Source: Terrimicrobiaceae bacterium
GTDB taxonomy: Bacteria > Verrucomicrobiota > Verrucomicrobiia > Chthoniobacterales > Terrimicrobiaceae
Assembly: GCA_018402345.1 (NCBI GenBank)
Contig: JAGYIV010000012.1
Coordinates: 373,813 to 416,009, forward strand
Length of the DNA stretch: 42,197 nucleotides
Direction of reading: 5' to 3'
Every line of letters starts with the position of its first letter. Positions within the stretch are counted from its first letter, which is position 1. The notes below the pieces were generated by a model, which ran no database searches, was not told where the DNA came from, and saw nothing but the letters and a program-made list of their open reading frames with translations. This document shows positions 2,067 to 32,484 of the stretch, one piece after another. A program made the translations under genes and the position numbers.

Positions 2067-2104
2067 CCGCAATTTTTCTGGCCGATCGGCCAAAAAAGTT
2101 GCGG
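2067..2104. repeat. 38-bp palindromic repeat, copy 1 (symmetric class)
   Basis: The left arm is CCGCAATTTTTCTGGCC and the right arm GGCCAAAAAAGTTGCGG, around a GATC centre. The arms pair with only two mismatches. It lies 69 bases after the stop of the sigma-54 regulator and 92 bases before the next gene. Further copies occur at 21147, 21213, 22074 and 32447, with a degraded one near 12375. Confidence 0.9.
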
Positions 2105-12374: not shown

Positions 12375-12403
12375 ATCGGCCGATCGGACAAAAACGCTGC
12401 GGT
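12375..12403. repeat. Degraded copy of the 38-bp palindromic repeat
   Basis: Only the centre and right arm are recognisable: GGCCGATCGGACAAAAACG followed by CTGCGG. The left arm is lost. It lies about 50 bases after a sulfatase stop codon, the same kind of position as the intact copies. Confidence 0.55.
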
Positions 12404-21146: not shown

Positions 21147-21184
21147 CCGCAACTTTTTTGTCCGATCGGCCAAAAAAACTGCGG
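21147..21184. repeat. 38-bp palindromic repeat, copy 2 (symmetric class)
   Basis: The left arm is CCGCAACTTTTTTGTCC and the right arm GGCCAAAAAAACTGCGG around GATC. It lies 8 bases after the stop of the GH63-like gene and 28 bases before the next copy (21213). Confidence 0.92.
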
Positions 21185-21212
21185 ATTTACCCACGCGCGG
21201 GCGTCTTCGATT

Positions 21213-21250
21213 CCGGCAAAAAAATGGACGATCGGCCAAAAAGTTTGCGG
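21213..21250 (+). repeat. 38-bp repeat, copy 3 (asymmetric class), upstream of PaaX-like gene
   Basis: The right arm is the usual GGCCAAAAAGTTTGCGG. The left arm reads CCGGCAAAAAAATGGAC, which does not pair with it along its length. Copy 4 at 22074 has the same left arm and orientation, so the two form direct repeats on either side of the PaaX-like gene. Confidence 0.9.
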
Positions 21251-21280
21251 AAATGGGTGGAGGGTGGTTTTCTTTTGGGA

Positions 21281-22066
21281 ATGAAACCTCGGACGGAACT
21301 TTTTCTCTATACGCTGGTTTGGGGGTTGGATGTCATGGCGAGGCCGACATTTCGTTCGATGAACGAGTCGTTTGAAGGGTGGGCTTGGCGCGCTGGGTTG
21401 TTGGATCGGGTGCGGCGGCTGGAGGAGCAGGGGAGCTTGGAATGCAGCGGGAGATCGGTGGATCGTGTGGTGAAGTTGACCGAGCGGGGGCGGCTTTTGG
21501 CGCTTGGCGGCGTCGATCCCACGCGGTTGTGGGATGCCCAGTGGGATGGGAAATGGAGGGTGGTCTCGTTTGATTTGCCAGAGACGGAGCGGAAACTCCG
21601 CCGTGTTTTCCGGGAGACCCTGCGACGGCACAATTTCGGATGCTTGCAACGCAGCCTCTGGATCACTCCGCATGCCTTGGGAAAGGACTTGCTCGAGGCC
21701 GAAGGGTCTCTGGGGAGCCTGAAAGGCCTCGCTGTGGTGGAAGGCGGCTTTGCCGGGAAAGTGACGAATGCTGAGGTGGTTTCTTCAGCTTGGGACTTCC
21801 CGAAGATTTTCAGCCTGTATGAGGAGCATGGGAAATGGCTGGATGCCTTGCCCGCGAAAGAGTCCTCGCCCGAAGAGTTTGTTTCTTGGGCGGAAGGGGA
21901 GTTGGAGCGCTGGCGTCCGATCCTGCATTGGGATCCGTTCCTCCCCCAAGCCTTGCTGCCCGAGGCCTACCCCGGTCGAACTGCTTGGGACAAACGCTTG
22001 GGCGTTCTGAAGGAGTTCGGAAAGCGCGCCTTTGGAACAAGTTCCCAAGGTGGGCTTGAGGGTTGA
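21281..22066 (+). CDS. PaaX-family protein (winged helix plus Cas2-like domain)
   Basis: This 261-aa protein has the three PaaX-type parts. An N-terminal winged helix is at about 5-75 (LLDRVRRLEEQGSLE, VVKLTERGRLLAL). A central ferredoxin-like, Cas2-related domain is at about 85-135 (WDGKWRVVSFDLPETERKL, HNFGCLQRSLWITPH). The PaaX C-terminal region is at about 190-245 (ELERWRPILHWDPFLP, LLPEAYPG). Known PaaX is a phenylacetyl-CoA-responsive repressor, but no phenylacetate genes are here, so that role is not supported. ATG 21281 is chosen. The frame stays open upstream to 21158, through both upstream repeats. The gene sits between sugar genes, with repeat copies 31 bases before its ATG and 7 bases after its stop. 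This looks like an inserted unit, and the protein may act on those repeats. That link is inference. Confidence 0.88.
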   Translation: MKPRTELFLYTLVWGLDVMARPTFRSMNESFEGWAWRAGLLDRVRRLEEQGSLECSGRSVDRVVKLTERGRLLALGGVDPTRLWDAQWDGKWRVVSFDLPETERKLRRVFRETLRRHNFGCLQRSLWITPHALGKDLLEAEGSLGSLKGLAVVEGGFAGKVTNAEVVSSAWDFPKIFSLYEEHGKWLDALPAKESSPEEFVSWAEGELERWRPILHWDPFLPQALLPEAYPGRTAWDKRLGVLKEFGKRAFGTSSQGGLEG

Positions 22067-22073
22067 CTGATGA

Positions 22074-22111
22074 CCGGCAAAAAAATGGCCGATCGGCCAA
22101 AAAAGTTGCGG
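22074..22111 (+). repeat. 38-bp repeat, copy 4 (asymmetric class), downstream of PaaX-like gene
   Basis: The left arm is CCGGCAAAAAAATGGCC and the right arm GGCCAAAAAAGTTGCGG around GATC. It begins 7 bases after the PaaX-like stop and matches copy 3 in structure and orientation. An operator-like palindrome follows 7 bases later. Confidence 0.92.
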
Positions 22112-25730: not shown

Positions 25731-28700
25731 ATGTTTCAAAAAATCCCTCCCCAGATTGTCGTTGAAGGCAGCAAAGCGTCTGTTCATGGGGCGATGCGGT
25801 CGGTAGTCGGTTTCAAAAAGAGGGCGTCTTCATCGCTCACAGGTGCAGGATTCCGGACGGGATATTGCCAGATGTTTGGAATGTTGAAAGCGGTCATCGC
25901 GATTGTTGGGATGGGTGTTGCTCAACAGATGGGCTCAGCAGTCGCGGGCACTTACACATGGACGGGAGCAACCTCGGGAAACTTCGGAGTTACCACCAAC
26001 TGGGATACGGCACCGACATTCAACAACACGGCTGATCTGATTTTCGATGCGGCGAGTGCGAATTCGACAACGGGTTCGCCTTCGTTTTTAGGAGCGACCA
26101 GGACCATCCGCTCAATGACTTTCGAGGCCGATGCTGATACGGATTTAATGATTCTATTAGCGACCACCACTGCAGATACCACTGCTGCCAATGCTTTTAT
26201 GGGGTCAAGCACCGGAACGGCAAGTATCGTTATTAATGCCGGCGCCACGGGGAACTTTCAGTTAGGCAATGCTCAAGGAGTGTTGAGGCTCGACAGCAAT
26301 CTTCTGGTAGATCATAGCGGCAGTGGGAACCTCACGATTCGAGCGATTTCTGTCCCTGGTGCCGGACAAATAAAATACATCACGAAGAATGGAACGGGAA
26401 CCCTCGTCTTGGGGGTGGGGGGAACCATCAACTATCTTTACCAAGGCGGGTTGGTCCTGAATTCCGGAACCGTAATCACAAGAAACAACGCGTCTACTCT
26501 CGGCACAACGGCTGCGACTTTGGCTTTGAACGGTGGCGTGCTGAAGTTCATGCACTCTGGAAACGCCAACTTCAACAGGAATACCACCGTTAGCGGAGAC
26601 GCTAAAATCATTACCTCCAACTTTTCCGGTGGTGCCGGTCTCAATTACACCCTCGGAACCCTTTCGATTGGTGAATACACGCTCTCGGTGGACGGTGAAG
26701 ACTTCACCTCTGGAACTGGCCAAGTCACCTTCGGCGCGACCACGCTCACCGGCAATGCCGTTTTCAATGTCACCAATCCCACCAGTGGCTCGGGCGTCAC
26801 GAACTTGAACCTTGGAGCAATCGGGGATGGGGGTTCGGGATTTGGGCTCACGAAAAGCGGCGATGGCACCCTGACGATCAATGCCACAAACACCTACACG
26901 GGGCCGACGATTGTGAATGCCGGCACATTGGCGCTTGGCACCGCTGGAACTCTTTCCTCGAGCACCGCATTGACCGTCAATGGCACCCTCACGATGAATG
27001 CCATCTCCGGATCCTCCCTCACCGTGGCTTCGCTTTCAGGTAACAGCAGCGGATCGATTGTGATCGGTGCCAAATCGCTCATCGCCGGAGACGGCACGAG
27101 CACGGATGTCGGCGGGGTGATCAGCGGAGCGAGTGGTGCGCTCACCAAAGACGGGGCGGGCACGCTGAGCCTCTCAGGTGCGAACACCTATACTGGAGCG
27201 ACAACCATCAATGCCGGCACGCTCCAGATCGGCAACGGCGGCTCGACAGGCAGCCTTTCCACGAGCAGCGCGATCACGAACGACAGCGCGCTGGCATTCA
27301 ATCGCAGTGACACCATTACCCAAGGCACGGATTTCACCGCGACTGCGATTAGCGGTTCGGGCTCCCTGGTTCAAAATGGCTCAGGGACACTGATCCTGAG
27401 TTCCGCCAACACCTACACTGGCGGCACGGTGCTCAATGCCGGCACGATCCAGATCGACAATGCCAATGCGCTCAACTCTACGGGCAACCTCACCTTTGGC
27501 GGTGGTGCGTTGCTTTATGGCAGTGGCATCACCGAGGATTTCTCGGCACGCTTTAAAAACAGCGGCTCGGCCATCGTGATCGATACCAATGGCCAAAACA
27601 TCGCCTTCGCCAGCGTGATCGATTCGTCCAACAGCGGCGGGCTGACAAAAAACGGAGCCGGCGATCTCACGATCTCGGGCTCGAACACCTTCACCGGCGA
27701 TGTCACGCTGAATACCGGCCGCCTGATCCTTGGCAACGACTCGGCGTTGGACGGCGCGTCGGGAAGCATCGTGATCAACAGCGGCACGCTGGATGTCACC
27801 GCCGCCCGCACACTCAGCGGGAACAAGGCGCAACACTGGAATGGCAACTTCACCTTCGCCGGGTCGAACACGCTAAACATGGGCACCGGTGCGGTGACGC
27901 TCGGGGCGAATTCGACGGTCACTGTCAGTGCGAGCACACTGACTGTCGGCGGAGATTTATCCGGCACAGGCTACGGCCTCGGCAAGAGCGGTGCAGGCAC
28001 GCTGGTGCTCTCGGGAAGCAATTCCTACACAGGCGCGACGACGGTGAATTCGGGAACGGTGCTCTTTGACGGAGTGAACGCCCTTTCCTCCAGCTCCTCG
28101 GTCTTGGATGCCGGCACCGCGACCCTGAGCTTCCTCGATGGAGCGACCAGCAACATCACGACCTCGGGCGGCCTCACACTGAACAACAGCACGTTTGTCT
28201 TCGACCTCAGCGGATCCTCGGCGGACCGCTTGAACTTCGGTGGATCGGCCTCCCTGAGCGGCACGAACACGATCAATATCAATTTCCTGAGTCCGGCGAA
28301 CGCCGGCAACTTCACCCTCCTCACCGCCGCCGGGGGGCTCAATTCCTCGTGGAGCCTCGATCCGAGCGTGCTCCAGTCTGGCTTCACTTTCACGCTGGAT
28401 CAATCCTCGGCGACGCAATTGGTCCTCGTTGTCGCCTTCAGCTCCAGCGGGCGTTACTGGACAGGCGAGGCCAGTAATAATTGGTCGGGGGTGAATTTCA
28501 GCACCTCCTCAAACGGTTCGGCCACGCTCTCGGGGGCGGATTTGGATGCGGACTCCGACTTGATCTTCGCGGGCGACACGCCAACCAACCTCGCGACGGT
28601 GATTTCCTCGAACTACACGATCGGCTCTCTGGCCGTGAGCACAGCGGGGGTTTCGATCAATGGATCCCACACAATCACGGCGAACAAAACCGGCGACGCC

Positions 28701-31244
28701 ACCTACAGTGTCACCGCCGCCAGCGGGACCACCAATATCGGCGCGACCCTCGCAGGTGCGGGGGCCGGACTCACCATGGCCGGGGGAGGCACCCTTGCCC
28801 TCAACGCCGCAAATTCCTACGGCGGCAACACGACCGTGACTTCTGGAACGCTGGCGATCAACAACGCGGGCGCCATTTCGAGTGGGACTCTCGTCATAAC
28901 TGGTGGTTCGTTGAACAATACCAGCGGCGGAGCCATCACGCTCTCCACAAACAACGCCCAAAGCTGGAATAGCGACTTCGCTTTTATCGGCACAAATGAT
29001 TTGAACCTCGGCACCGGTGCTGTGACGCTCGGCGCCACCCGAGTGGTTACTGTCACAGCAGGCAACCTCACGGTCGGCGGCAATATCGGCGCTACTGCGT
29101 TCGGCATCACCAAGGAAGGAGCCGGCACGCTGCTGCTCTCGGGGTCGAATGCCTACACCGGCACCACCACAATCAATGCGGGAACGCTTCGCATCTCCGG
29201 CGGCAATGCGATCAGTGACTCCGGTGTCGTGACTCTGGCCGATGCCTCGGGAGTTGCCTTTCAAGTCAACAGCAGTGAAACGATTGCCTCTCTGCGAGGT
29301 GGGGGATCAACGGGCGGCACTGTCACGGTGGCTTCTGCGCAAACCCTCACGGTCGCCGAGAGTGGCTCGCAGACATTTTCAGGCGTCATCTCGGGGGCTG
29401 GCGCTTTGACACTCAACGGCAGCGGCACCATGTCACTGGCTGGTGCGAATACCTACTCCGGAGGCACGACGATCACGGCGGGAACACTGTCGATCGGCGT
29501 TGGAGGCACAACGGGCTCGCTGTCCACCTCAAGCACCATCGTCAACAACGGGGCGCTGGCATTCAATCGCTCCAACACCATCACCCAAGGCACGGATTTC
29601 ACCTCCTCGGCGATCAGCGGCTCTGGTGCACTCGTTCAAAACGGCAGTGGAACCACGATTCTCACGGCGGATCACAGCTACACAGGTGCGACCATTATCA
29701 ATGCCGGCACTCTGCAAATCGGCAACGGCGGCACCAGTGGATCGCTGGCCACAACCAGCGCGATTACAAATAATAGTTCCCTTGCCTTCAACCGCTCGGA
29801 TGACATCACTCAAGGCACCCACTTCAGCGCGAACATCACCGGCTCCGGCACCCTTATCAAAAACGGCACAGGCAACCTCACCATTGGCGTGGCGAACAGC
29901 TACACCGGCGGCACAGTCATCAATGCCGGAACGCTCCAAATCCGCAATGCCAGCGCGCTCGGCACCTCCGGCGCGATCTCCTTCGGTGGCGGCACGCTCC
30001 AATGGGGGAATGTAACGACCGACCTCTCCTCACGCCTCAGCACGGCTGGCGGGCAGGATTTCAAGTTTGATACGAATGGTAACCTGGTCACATTCAACAC
30101 GGGCATCAACAATGCCGGGGGAACAGTCACTAAAGATGGGTCTAACGCCTTGCGGCTTGCCATAACCAACACATTTTCGTCACTCACGATCAATGGCGGC
30201 AATGTCCGCGGCGGCAACAATGCGAACACCTTCGGTGGAGCCGGGGCGACCGTCTATATGAATGCCGGTTCCTTGAGCTTTTTCACCAACTCTGCTGCGA
30301 ATGGAAACTATACCCACAACAACCTTGTCATCCAAGGCGACGCCACCCTTACAAATGTCAACAGTGGCGGCAGCACGGCGACCTACTTCCAGTTTGGAAA
30401 CCTGACTGTCGGATCAAACACACTTACCATCGAGCCCGGCGATGCTGGAGTGGGAACAGGTGACGCCAAGATCACGATCACCAACACCACCACGCTGGCG
30501 GGCGACGCGACATTCAACATCACCGATCGCGCCAACAATGTTCTCGCCTTGAACGGGGTCACACAAAGCGGCGGCACGCGCGGCTTGACCAAGACCGGCG
30601 CTGGCACGCTGCAACTCAACGGCACAAGCACCTTCACCGGCACCACGACGATCAGCGCCGGCGTCTTGGAAGCCGCTGCCGCCAATGCGCTCGGAAGCAC
30701 AGCAACCATCAATGTGAACGGCGGCTCGCTCCTCGTGACCGCCGACAACGCGATTGGAAATACCACCGGCATCGATCTCGCCGGCGGCAACTTGGCATTC
30801 AGCGGCAATGTGACCGACACGATCGGCGCGCTCACGCTCTCGGCGAACTCGGTGATCGACCTCGGCACTGGCAGCGTGGTGGCGATCTTTGCGGATCTAT
30901 TTATGGGCAGTTACACGCTGGCGGTGCACAACTGGACCGGCACGACGCTCTGGAACGGCGGCACCGGCAACAACACGGACCAGATTTATTTCAACCGGGC
31001 ACTCGGTAGCGGTGAGCTTGATCGGATCAGCTTCTACAGCGATTTCGGAAGCAGCTTCCTGGGGACCGGATTCCAGCTCGGCCTCGGAAGTGGCTTCCAA
31101 TACGAGGTGATCCCCGTGCCCGAAGCGGAGACATGGGTGGGGGCGGCGTTGCTGCTTGTGGGCGCAGGCGTGGCGTGGATGCGCGGACGCTGCCGGCGGA
31201 GGGCGAACATGGTTGGACAGGATTTGCAGGCCGCCCTGCGGTGA
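25731..31244 (+). CDS. Giant beta-strand-repeat surface protein with PEP-CTERM-like sorting signal
   Basis: This 1837-aa protein has an extended N-terminal region with a signal-type hydrophobic segment (AVIAIVGMGVAQQMGSAVAG, about 55-74). The passenger is built from about 12 or 13 autotransporter-associated beta-strand repeats of the form LTKxGxGTLxLxGxNxYTGxTTINAGTL. It should fold as a long beta-helix that reaches outside the cell. The C-terminus has VPEAETW, a hydrophobic helix (VGAALLLVGAGVAWM) and an Arg-rich cluster, i.e. a PEP-CTERM-like signal, although the usual VPEPxTW is altered to VPEAETW. No autotransporter barrel is present, so sorting by an exosortase-type system is likelier. 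The coding sequence is Gly/Thr/Asn/Ser-rich. It probably acts as an adhesin or matrix scaffold. One of the shared operators lies 24 bases upstream. Confidence 0.93.
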   Translation: MFQKIPPQIVVEGSKASVHGAMRSVVGFKKRASSSLTGAGFRTGYCQMFGMLKAVIAIVGMGVAQQMGSAVAGTYTWTGATSGNFGVTTNWDTAPTFNNTADLIFDAASANSTTGSPSFLGATRTIRSMTFEADADTDLMILLATTTADTTAANAFMGSSTGTASIVINAGATGNFQLGNAQGVLRLDSNLLVDHSGSGNLTIRAISVPGAGQIKYITKNGTGTLVLGVGGTINYLYQGGLVLNSGTVITRNNASTLGTTAATLALNGGVLKFMHSGNANFNRNTTVSGDAKIITSNFSGGAGLNYTLGTLSIGEYTLSVDGEDFTSGTGQVTFGATTLTGNAVFNVTNPTSGSGVTNLNLGAIGDGGSGFGLTKSGDGTLTINATNTYTGPTIVNAGTLALGTAGTLSSSTALTVNGTLTMNAISGSSLTVASLSGNSSGSIVIGAKSLIAGDGTSTDVGGVISGASGALTKDGAGTLSLSGANTYTGATTINAGTLQIGNGGSTGSLSTSSAITNDSALAFNRSDTITQGTDFTATAISGSGSLVQNGSGTLILSSANTYTGGTVLNAGTIQIDNANALNSTGNLTFGGGALLYGSGITEDFSARFKNSGSAIVIDTNGQNIAFASVIDSSNSGGLTKNGAGDLTISGSNTFTGDVTLNTGRLILGNDSALDGASGSIVINSGTLDVTAARTLSGNKAQHWNGNFTFAGSNTLNMGTGAVTLGANSTVTVSASTLTVGGDLSGTGYGLGKSGAGTLVLSGSNSYTGATTVNSGTVLFDGVNALSSSSSVLDAGTATLSFLDGATSNITTSGGLTLNNSTFVFDLSGSSADRLNFGGSASLSGTNTININFLSPANAGNFTLLTAAGGLNSSWSLDPSVLQSGFTFTLDQSSATQLVLVVAFSSSGRYWTGEASNNWSGVNFSTSSNGSATLSGADLDADSDLIFAGDTPTNLATVISSNYTIGSLAVSTAGVSINGSHTITANKTGDATYSVTAASGTTNIGATLAGAGAGLTMAGGGTLALNAANSYGGNTTVTSGTLAINNAGAISSGTLVITGGSLNNTSGGAITLSTNNAQSWNSDFAFIGTNDLNLGTGAVTLGATRVVTVTAGNLTVGGNIGATAFGITKEGAGTLLLSGSNAYTGTTTINAGTLRISGGNAISDSGVVTLADASGVAFQVNSSETIASLRGGGSTGGTVTVASAQTLTVAESGSQTFSGVISGAGALTLNGSGTMSLAGANTYSGGTTITAGTLSIGVGGTTGSLSTSSTIVNNGALAFNRSNTITQGTDFTSSAISGSGALVQNGSGTTILTADHSYTGATIINAGTLQIGNGGTSGSLATTSAITNNSSLAFNRSDDITQGTHFSANITGSGTLIKNGTGNLTIGVANSYTGGTVINAGTLQIRNASALGTSGAISFGGGTLQWGNVTTDLSSRLSTAGGQDFKFDTNGNLVTFNTGINNAGGTVTKDGSNALRLAITNTFSSLTINGGNVRGGNNANTFGGAGATVYMNAGSLSFFTNSAANGNYTHNNLVIQGDATLTNVNSGGSTATYFQFGNLTVGSNTLTIEPGDAGVGTGDAKITITNTTTLAGDATFNITDRANNVLALNGVTQSGGTRGLTKTGAGTLQLNGTSTFTGTTTISAGVLEAAAANALGSTATINVNGGSLLVTADNAIGNTTGIDLAGGNLAFSGNVTDTIGALTLSANSVIDLGTGSVVAIFADLFMGSYTLAVHNWTGTTLWNGGTGNNTDQIYFNRALGSGELDRISFYSDFGSSFLGTGFQLGLGSGFQYEVIPVPEAETWVGAALLLVGAGVAWMRGRCRRRANMVGQDLQAALR
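27180..29900 (+). repeat. Three long coding repeats inside the giant beta-strand-repeat gene
   Basis: A module of about 80 residues recurs at about 27180-27400, 29440-29670 and 29680-29900. It holds TYTGATTINAGTLQIGNGG, GSLSTSSAITN, LAFNRSDTITQGTDF and GSGSLVQNGSGT with small changes. These copies are longer and more alike than the other beta-strand repeats, so they are probably recent internal duplications. Confidence 0.8.
31114..31205 (+). other. PEP-CTERM-like sorting signal coding region
   Basis: The segment encodes PVPEAETW, then a hydrophobic segment of about 17 residues, then RGRCRRR. This is the tripartite layout of exosortase substrates, with an atypical proline-alanine change in the motif. 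No exosortase gene is in the window. Confidence 0.7.
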
Positions 31245-32446: not shown

Positions 32447-32484
32447 CCGCAACTTTTTTGGCCGATCGGACAAAAAAGTTGCGG
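32447..32484. repeat. 38-bp palindromic repeat, copy 5 (symmetric class)
   Basis: The left arm is CCGCAACTTTTTTGGCC and the right arm GGACAAAAAAGTTGCGG around GATC, with one mismatch between the arms. It lies 43 bases after the mutarotase stop codon and 96 bases before the AXE1-like start, counting in the direction of transcription. Confidence 0.92.

Follow-up and report, generated by a model that had tools for sequence, protein, structure and literature searches.

Proteins tied to repeats of the REP type are, as far as the accessible portions of the relevant papers go, tyrosine transposases, namely the RAYTs and their TIRYT relatives (PMC2817692, PMC3116915, PMC3733652). The same portions describe the REP–RAYT signature that the present locus matches, and the first of these papers reports, in the part available, that RAYTs evolve rapidly (PMC2817692). 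The main text of a 2025 survey of REPs (PMC12306157) contains none of the terms PaaX, Cas2, RAYT, Verrucomicrobi- and Patescibacteria. In the literature searched, whose scope left out subscription papers and preprints, no paper joined PaaX with Cas2 or with Patescibacteria, none joined the PaaX family with repeats and transposition, and none joined Patescibacteria with the CRISPR-associated endonuclease Cas2. Among the papers listed for related searches, no title suggested a system of the present kind.

Here we describe a gene for a PaaX-like protein that is bracketed by copies of a palindrome within a 42,197-nucleotide stretch of a Terrimicrobiaceae genome (contig JAGYIV010000012.1; hereafter the window). 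The protein and the palindrome are partners: they co-occur, they co-vary, and the gene is bracketed in two distant groups of bacteria. We judge it rather probable that together they form a one-gene, co-evolving protein–palindrome system, one that resembles REP–RAYT in action but is built on a protein of the PaaX/Cas2 fold. The searches point to a partnership that is undescribed, in the sense of not being found in the literature covered.

Results

The paaX-like gene occupies positions 21281 to 22066 of the + strand, encodes 261 amino acids and has an MGH1-like glycosidase and a sulfatase as neighbours. Three copies of a 38-bp palindrome lie round it, as a reading made earlier from the sequence alone had claimed: a near-symmetric copy on the − strand directly 3′ of the glycosidase stop codon (21147–21184), an asymmetric copy on the + strand whose centre lies 49 bp 5′ of the ATG (21213–21250), and a further asymmetric copy on the + strand 7 bp past the stop codon (22074–22111). 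Because the gene starts at ATG 21281, the start common to the homologues, the upstream gap is 30 bp and not the 31 bp first given; the downstream gap of 7 bp stands. The string CCGGCAAAAAAATGG has two exact matches in the whole window, both on the + strand, and three when up to two mismatches are allowed, a number that 0 of 100 shuffles reached. Dispersed copies were found in the window at 2067–2104 (+) and, in near-symmetric form, at 32447–32484 (+), together with a half copy comprising the centre and right arm at 12378–12402 (+). The window genome (G000, 3.14 Mb) holds 38 strict copies, or 26 separate places after near copies are merged, and about 0.01 palindrome places are expected within 1.2 kb round a given gene. 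The assembly is 96% complete and has no PaaX_M match other than the paaX-like gene. A scan of 20 window proteins, a subset of the ORFs, named no phenylacetate gene, in agreement with the earlier reading, and found no Cas1. A search for promoters of the sigma-70 type gave no match at the upstream palindrome. Positions 25731–31241 of the window encode a protein of 1837 amino acids with 11 PATR stretches, resembling an autotransporter passenger, which adjoins the sulfatase cluster.

Behind a helical, winged N-terminus, the window protein matched PaaX_M (residues 86–166; E 5e-20, 71.8 bits against a cut-off of 24) and PaaX_C (E 2e-6, 28.4 bits against 22), but it fell short of the PaaX equivalog TIGR02277 (48.9 against 264.55 bits). 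It also scored below the Cas2 cut-offs (PF09827, 15.3 against 23.8 bits; TIGR01573, 17.4 against 24.5), as did the protein of locus L205 from the Patescibacteria; profile matches suggest that some other members from that group pass them (best E 4.4e-6 for Pfam and 1.3e-6 for NCBIfam). The Patescibacteria relatives are mostly shorter, with PaaX_C present in 2 of 9 profile members. The Y1 domain (PF01797) had no match at E ≤ 0.01 in the 14 members of profile A2 or the nine of the Patescibacteria profile A3 (two members common to both). A PHROGs search returned weak helix-turn-helix matches only, and a PADLOC search returned Cas2 matches together with weaker ones that were mostly winged-helix.

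A structural model of the window protein (pLDDT 76, pTM 0.69, residues 1–27 below 50) aligned over most of its length with E. coli PaaX (Z 13.1) and Rv0674 (Z 12.8), and residues 91–168 aligned with Cas2 SSO8090 (3exc) at Z 9.1, the top score among Cas2 proteins. The PaaX layout with a Cas2-fold middle, proposed earlier from the translation, was thus borne out by domain matches and model alike. In a model of a Patescibacteria protein (pLDDT 75), the winged helix gave Z scores of up to 10.7 and the Cas2 core one of 9.9 (SSO8090, 3exc). An Asp at the position of window residue 98 was found in 25 of 25 Verrucomicrobiota-type and Patescibacteria proteins versus 0 of 55 others (80 loci). The Patescibacteria profile aligns this conserved residue with an Asp of the solved Cas2 6jhz (FDip against FDLP), which we take to be the catalytic Asp of Cas2. 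The dN/dS ratios of the proteins compared, 0.06–0.27, indicate purifying selection. The winged helix of profile A3 matched PaaX and also AspA (PDB 4rs8, 5k1y, 5k5o; E about 1e-4). AspA serves in the partition of archaeal plasmids and spreads from a palindromic site.

The gene and the palindrome were then compared across 16 congeneric genomes, the window genome included. The paaX-like protein was present in five, namely the window genome and four others at 53–55% identity. With a loose palindrome pattern (WWWTGNNCGATCGNNCAWWW), the five carriers held 38, 23, 21, 15 and 8 palindromes, whereas the 11 non-carriers held none in ten cases and one in the remaining genome, G012; the reversed pattern, used as a control, was absent from all 16. 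Five of the non-carriers are at least 90% complete, each with no palindrome, and the other six are under 90%. The four other carriers likewise have palindromes on both sides of the gene, alike in build but different in sequence (partly N-masked in G013), and the palindrome centres follow lineage (GGCCGATCGGCC, GGACGATCGTCC and GAACGATCGTTC); the exact window palindrome forms no family in relatives, single matches occurring in 6 of 57. The asymmetric arm and direct orientation noted at the window locus are real but belong to that genome's repeat and do not generalize: palindromes in the relatives are mostly near-symmetric, and their orientation therefore carries little information. The four other carriers are perhaps one lineage, since their gltX genes are similar, and the association within the genus perhaps reflects two lineages, or independent gains. 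In contrast, G007, whose gltX is equally similar, lacks both the gene and palindrome copies. The context of the gene in G000 differs from that in the other carriers. Between G008 and G013, the paaX-like protein is 69% identical and gltX 87%. An isolated N-terminal remnant of the protein (L074 in G034; residues 2–47 matched) was seen in a genome from a different family within the order.

For eleven sites of G013, the aligned places in other genomes were inspected by eye; 38 of the 40 regions fetched were used (not L285 or L297), and some flanks align poorly. A palindrome was found at the aligned place in 6 of 8 cases in G011, 6 of 8 in G002, 2 of 8 in G008, 1 of 7 in G012 and 0 of 7 in G007. 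G008 has other arm letters at the two sites that it has in common with G013, meaning that the repeat evolves in concert. At one site, where G002 and G011 have a pair spaced 111 bp apart, G013 has a single hybrid-looking copy, and at another a pair in G011 corresponds to a single copy in G013 and G002. At the gltX–AIRS site, G008 has a palindrome, the gene and then two palindromes. In G012, whose gltX is 94% identical to that of G008, the gene is absent from this site and one hybrid palindrome is present, its left side resembling the outer left copy of G008 (83% over 58 bp) and its right side the outer right copy (88% over 161 bp). The simplest account of this arrangement would be loss of the gene by recombination between palindromes. 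By the strict pattern G012 has a single palindrome (L090), to which the gltX site and L263 add one looser palindrome each. In G006, gltX adjoins AIRS without the gene. No target-site duplication was recognized by eye at the compared sites, in a set of genomes that includes no closely related strain pair.

The positions of palindromes relative to genes were sorted into classes that are approximate, because genes were placed by a crude codon-score caller and longest ORFs. By these classes, 12 of 22 palindromes in G013 lie between convergent genes (two of the 12 being neighbours) and 2 of 22 between divergent genes; the bias is weak in G000, where, with array units counted, 9 of 34 are convergent and 3 are divergent. 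Two of 22 palindromes in G013 and two of 34 in G000 fell inside an ORF, with 4 of 14 in the longest-ORF count. On contig C5 of G000 (72439–73704; L014–L020), eight head-to-tail units of 175–178 bp, each made of one palindrome and about 139 bp of conserved spacer, form an array that looks like a BIME-type expansion of the window repeat. Palindromes with a similar flanking spacer occur on C2, C6, C7 and C10.

A scan of 84,980 species genomes gave 333 related stretches, of which the best 80 were kept. Twelve of these are of the Verrucomicrobiota type; L136–L139 and L141 are genus genes already counted, and seven further genes, in six genomes, lie beyond the genus. Long gene-specific palindromes flank genes of this type. 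In a set of 12 such genes, with the window gene in and the masked L139 out, a flank score of at least 9 was reached upstream in 11 and downstream in 9, versus 7 of 532 control windows, and every upstream palindrome had its centre 49–59 bp 5′ of the start. Two paralogues within one genome (L145 and L146) have palindromes that differ. Dispersed copies beyond the genus were sought with the inner ten bases left free, in counts that take in the copies beside the gene. Four genomes held 10, 11, 8 and 2 places of a family like the gene's own flanks (controls 0, 0, 2 and 0), and two others, whose palindromes do not fit the pattern, held 1 and 0 (controls 3 and 0). The dispersed centres were the same as the gene's or close to it, except for 3 of 11 in G061 (TTAC or similar) and one chance-like place among the 8 in G060.

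Relatives of the protein were also found in 85 of 239 sampled genomes of the Patescibacteria (the name used here; the phylum of G064, which carries L205, is Paceibacterota), where as many as 11 copies occur in about 0.9 Mb; flanks were read for part of these 85. Among the 30 best loci, a score of at least 10 was reached upstream in 18 and downstream in 16, versus 6 of 395 control windows; a score of at least 12 was reached in 12 and 13 of the 30, respectively, versus 0 of 395. Most of 40 loci in six paralogue-rich genomes (six of them already among the 30) had a palindrome pair with a common core. The full flank set comprised 92 loci besides the window, which reduced to 86 genes (75 from Patescibacteria and 11 of the Verrucomicrobiota type, the window gene being the twelfth), the six rows lost being genes fetched twice; L139 (masked; the gene of L083), L205 (the gene of L309) and L213 had been left out beforehand. 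On at least one side, 57 of the 75 Patescibacteria genes scored 10 or more.

Genes scoring at least 7 on both sides (55 of 75 from Patescibacteria and 10 of 12 of the Verrucomicrobiota type) entered a test of whether the two flanks of a gene match each other. In Patescibacteria, identity between a gene's own flanks averaged 26.0 of 34 positions versus 13.5 between genes, a mean that 0 of 2000 permutations reached, and 48 of 55 genes attained the 95th percentile of between-gene pairs. The Verrucomicrobiota type gave 29.5 versus 16.4 (n = 10; 0 of 2000 permutations), with 6 of 10 genes at the 95th percentile.

The cores of 117 palindromes included CGATCG (43), CGGCCG (37), CATATG (9), CGGTCG (7) and CAATTG (5). 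Symmetry is lower between the core and the outer arms, a profile that would fit two contact zones of a dimer. Mismatches of the G–T (49) and A–C (42) kinds are about equally frequent, which fits a palindrome acting as DNA rather than RNA; with no clear G–T excess and no Rfam match in the window, a role as an RNA hairpin was rejected. In the central two pairs, read on the coding strand, G–T occurred seven times and A–C once (CGGTCG 7, CGACCG 0), and the site, symmetric in other respects, differs here between its strands.

With a pattern tailored to them, two Patescibacteria genomes held 3 and 4 palindrome places (control 0) and four others held none. Paralogues are about 65–74% alike over their long matches, and no near-identical unit copies within one genome were found in the six compared. 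Two paralogues of G181 have exactly identical 26-bp palindrome cores, and four orthologues occupy one conserved gene context. Four related copies lie in G287 (L338–L341), in three of which the matched stretch contains a single in-frame TAA or TAG, possibly through decay or because the match runs past a stop codon.

The 55 loci without the Asp among the best 80 of 333, mostly from Bacillaceae, served as a negative control. Matching flanks (at least 22 of 34) were found at 16 of 25 loci of the Asp group and at 0 of 55 of the control; by this measure nine of the 25 lack matching flanks, one of them being masked. Upstream scores of at least 9 were reached at 19 of 25 versus 1 of 55 loci, and downstream at 15 of 25 versus 7 of 55, where most of the seven look like terminators. 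Two control loci (L185 and L189) have strong upstream hairpins if small loops are allowed, with no downstream match. In a tree of 37 proteins that took in 13 of the 55 control loci and left out L139 and L213, these 13 separated with full support; the deeper order is unsure because of several long branches. Thus, in the genus, in other Verrucomicrobiota and in Patescibacteria, palindromes flank the homologues beyond chance and their sequence co-varies with the protein. Homologues mostly without nearby palindromes were seen for the 55 Bacillaceae-type PaaX loci of the control and not in the Asp subfamily. Both tests support the repeat-associated protein unit that the sequence-only reading had suggested by analogy with REPs and RAYTs.

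Discussion

The Asp subfamily is marked by flanks that match at their own gene, by dispersed copies specific to the genome, by one hybrid scar and by conservation of the Asp itself. We propose that the PaaX-like protein, a winged helix joined to a Cas2-like core, recognizes the 30–40 bp palindrome that brackets its own gene, and that the winged helix would be the part that binds it. The upstream copy, at its near-fixed distance from the start, may double as an operator through which the gene is autoregulated. The Cas2-like core might nick the palindrome or act on its DNA in another way, although nuclease activity is not readable from an Asp alone. Dispersed copies would then be cognate sites that the protein maintains, homogenizes or occasionally multiplies, in the role ascribed to RAYT transposases with respect to REPs, and recombination between copies could delete the gene and leave one palindrome behind. 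The narrower reading, in which the Cas2-fold protein with its active-site Asp acts as the nuclease by which its own palindromic repeats are processed and propagated, is offered tentatively, as somewhat less probable than its negation. If it were true, dispersed palindromes could arise independently of HUH transposases, and the finding would be relevant to the question of how a link between a Cas2-like protein and palindromic repeats could have formed before CRISPR.

The main rival is a self-regulating DNA-binding protein, in which the palindromes on both sides are operators, perhaps looping the gene, the dispersed copies are regulon or decoy sites, and nothing is cut or spread. The PaaX fold with its PaaX_M and PaaX_C domains, the winged-helix matches and the purifying selection all agree with such a transcription factor, and the placement of the upstream centre, 49–59 bp 5′ of the start codon in each of the 12 Verrucomicrobiota-type genes, counts against spread because a plain autorepressor would place its operator so. 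The G013 sites, 12 of 22 convergent and 2 of 22 divergent, are unlike operator positions (the bias in G000 is weak), and the near-identical 38-bp copies, tandem units of about 177 bp and pairs at 111 bp look copied rather than converged. Spread is favoured over regulation because of these near-identical dispersed copies, the tandem and paired layouts and the convergent positions in G013. The downstream copies at most genes would require an additional reason, and among the 80 loci the Asp is kept in the palindrome-bearing group only. On balance we regard regulation by itself as unlikely, though it is the alternative we take most seriously.

Mobility of the system is weakly supported. Active spread is made less likely by sites that are mostly common to the three closest carriers, by the four orthologues that keep their context and by the lack of near-identical units. 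We think it improbable that palindrome, gene and palindrome form a small autonomous mobile element, with solo palindromes as footprints or non-autonomous copies in the manner of solo LTRs. Such an element would fit the difference in gene context between G000 and the remaining carriers, gltX–AIRS without the gene in G006, the hybrid palindrome in G012, genomes of about 0.9 Mb with as many as 11 paralogues, and the two G181 paralogues with exactly the same 26-bp core; against it stand the lack of near-identical unit copies in the six genomes compared, the four orthologues in conserved context and the lack of any target duplication seen by eye. Carriage as phage, plasmid or virus cargo was rejected, one query each having found no match in viral contigs, in phages (window protein) or in plasmids (L205 protein).

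Transcription termination, with dispersed copies ending neighbouring transcripts and the protein incidental or a regulator of termination, is compatible with the other readings and, as an account of its own, very improbable. The − strand of the copy at 22074, core plus T run, does score terminator-like (four such sites were found in the window versus 2.6 expected), and the convergent positions in G013 would suit terminators; but the pre-gene copy, 31–45 bp upstream of the start in the Verrucomicrobiota loci read, would not end the gene's own transcript, the symmetric cores of most relatives are not followed by a T run, and the palindrome sequence tracks the protein. That a repeat spread by another transposase of G000 landed beside a paaX gene by coincidence is hardly credible: G000 does have five Y1_Tnp matches, but the same kind of bracketing is seen, with different sequences, in two groups, and the own-flank match and the contrast between Asp and flanks contradict coincidence as a general account.

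Spread by the Y1 transposases of G000 itself was rejected, the 38-bp repeat lying at 0 of their 5 loci (motif search, 1.5 kb each side). A repeat finder run on four of the five found other inverted repeats at three. The Y1 matches at L075, L076 and L078 are bounded by their own inverted repeats carrying GGGGTCAG and make up a second repeat–transposase set in G000, and at L079 (C2:521680–524853) a partial Y1 match lies within an unrelated array whose spacing is about 173 bp.

A protein class unrelated to RAYTs here shows the same signature in Verrucomicrobiota and in small, multi-paralogue Patescibacteria genomes. This offers a new reading of genes assigned to PaaX and Cas2 by profile libraries. 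Many protein–palindrome pairs stand ready, and specificity, co-evolution and DNA processing are therefore directly testable.

The closest comparison is with REP–RAYT. Both have a single gene between two cognate palindromes (here not at every gene), dispersed cognate copies whose abundance is tied to the presence of the gene (with limited phylogenetic independence in the genus), co-variation of protein and repeat, and pairs and tandem arrays of the REPIN or BIME kind. The differences lie in a PaaX/Cas2-fold protein without a Y1 (HUH-Tyr) domain, in palindromes that lack GTAG/CGTC tags and end mostly, by eye, in CCG..CGG or ACC..GGT, in several paralogues per Patescibacteria genome, and in purifying selection as against the rapid evolution described for RAYTs in the part of the source available (PMC2817692), although the paaX-like protein likewise falls behind gltX in conservation between G008 and G013. 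The system would thus be like REP–RAYT in action, yet it is no member, because the defining HUH-Tyr domain is absent. With the PaaX repressors of phenylacetate metabolism it shares fold and domain order, but the window protein scores far under the equivalog cut-off, has an Asp at the Cas2 position and palindromes on both sides of its gene, and is accompanied by no named phenylacetate gene among the window proteins scanned. With CRISPR Cas2 and VapD it shares the ferredoxin-like core and an Asp aligned with that of Cas2 6jhz; here, in contrast, no Cas1 was found among the window proteins scanned, and the core is fused to a winged helix.
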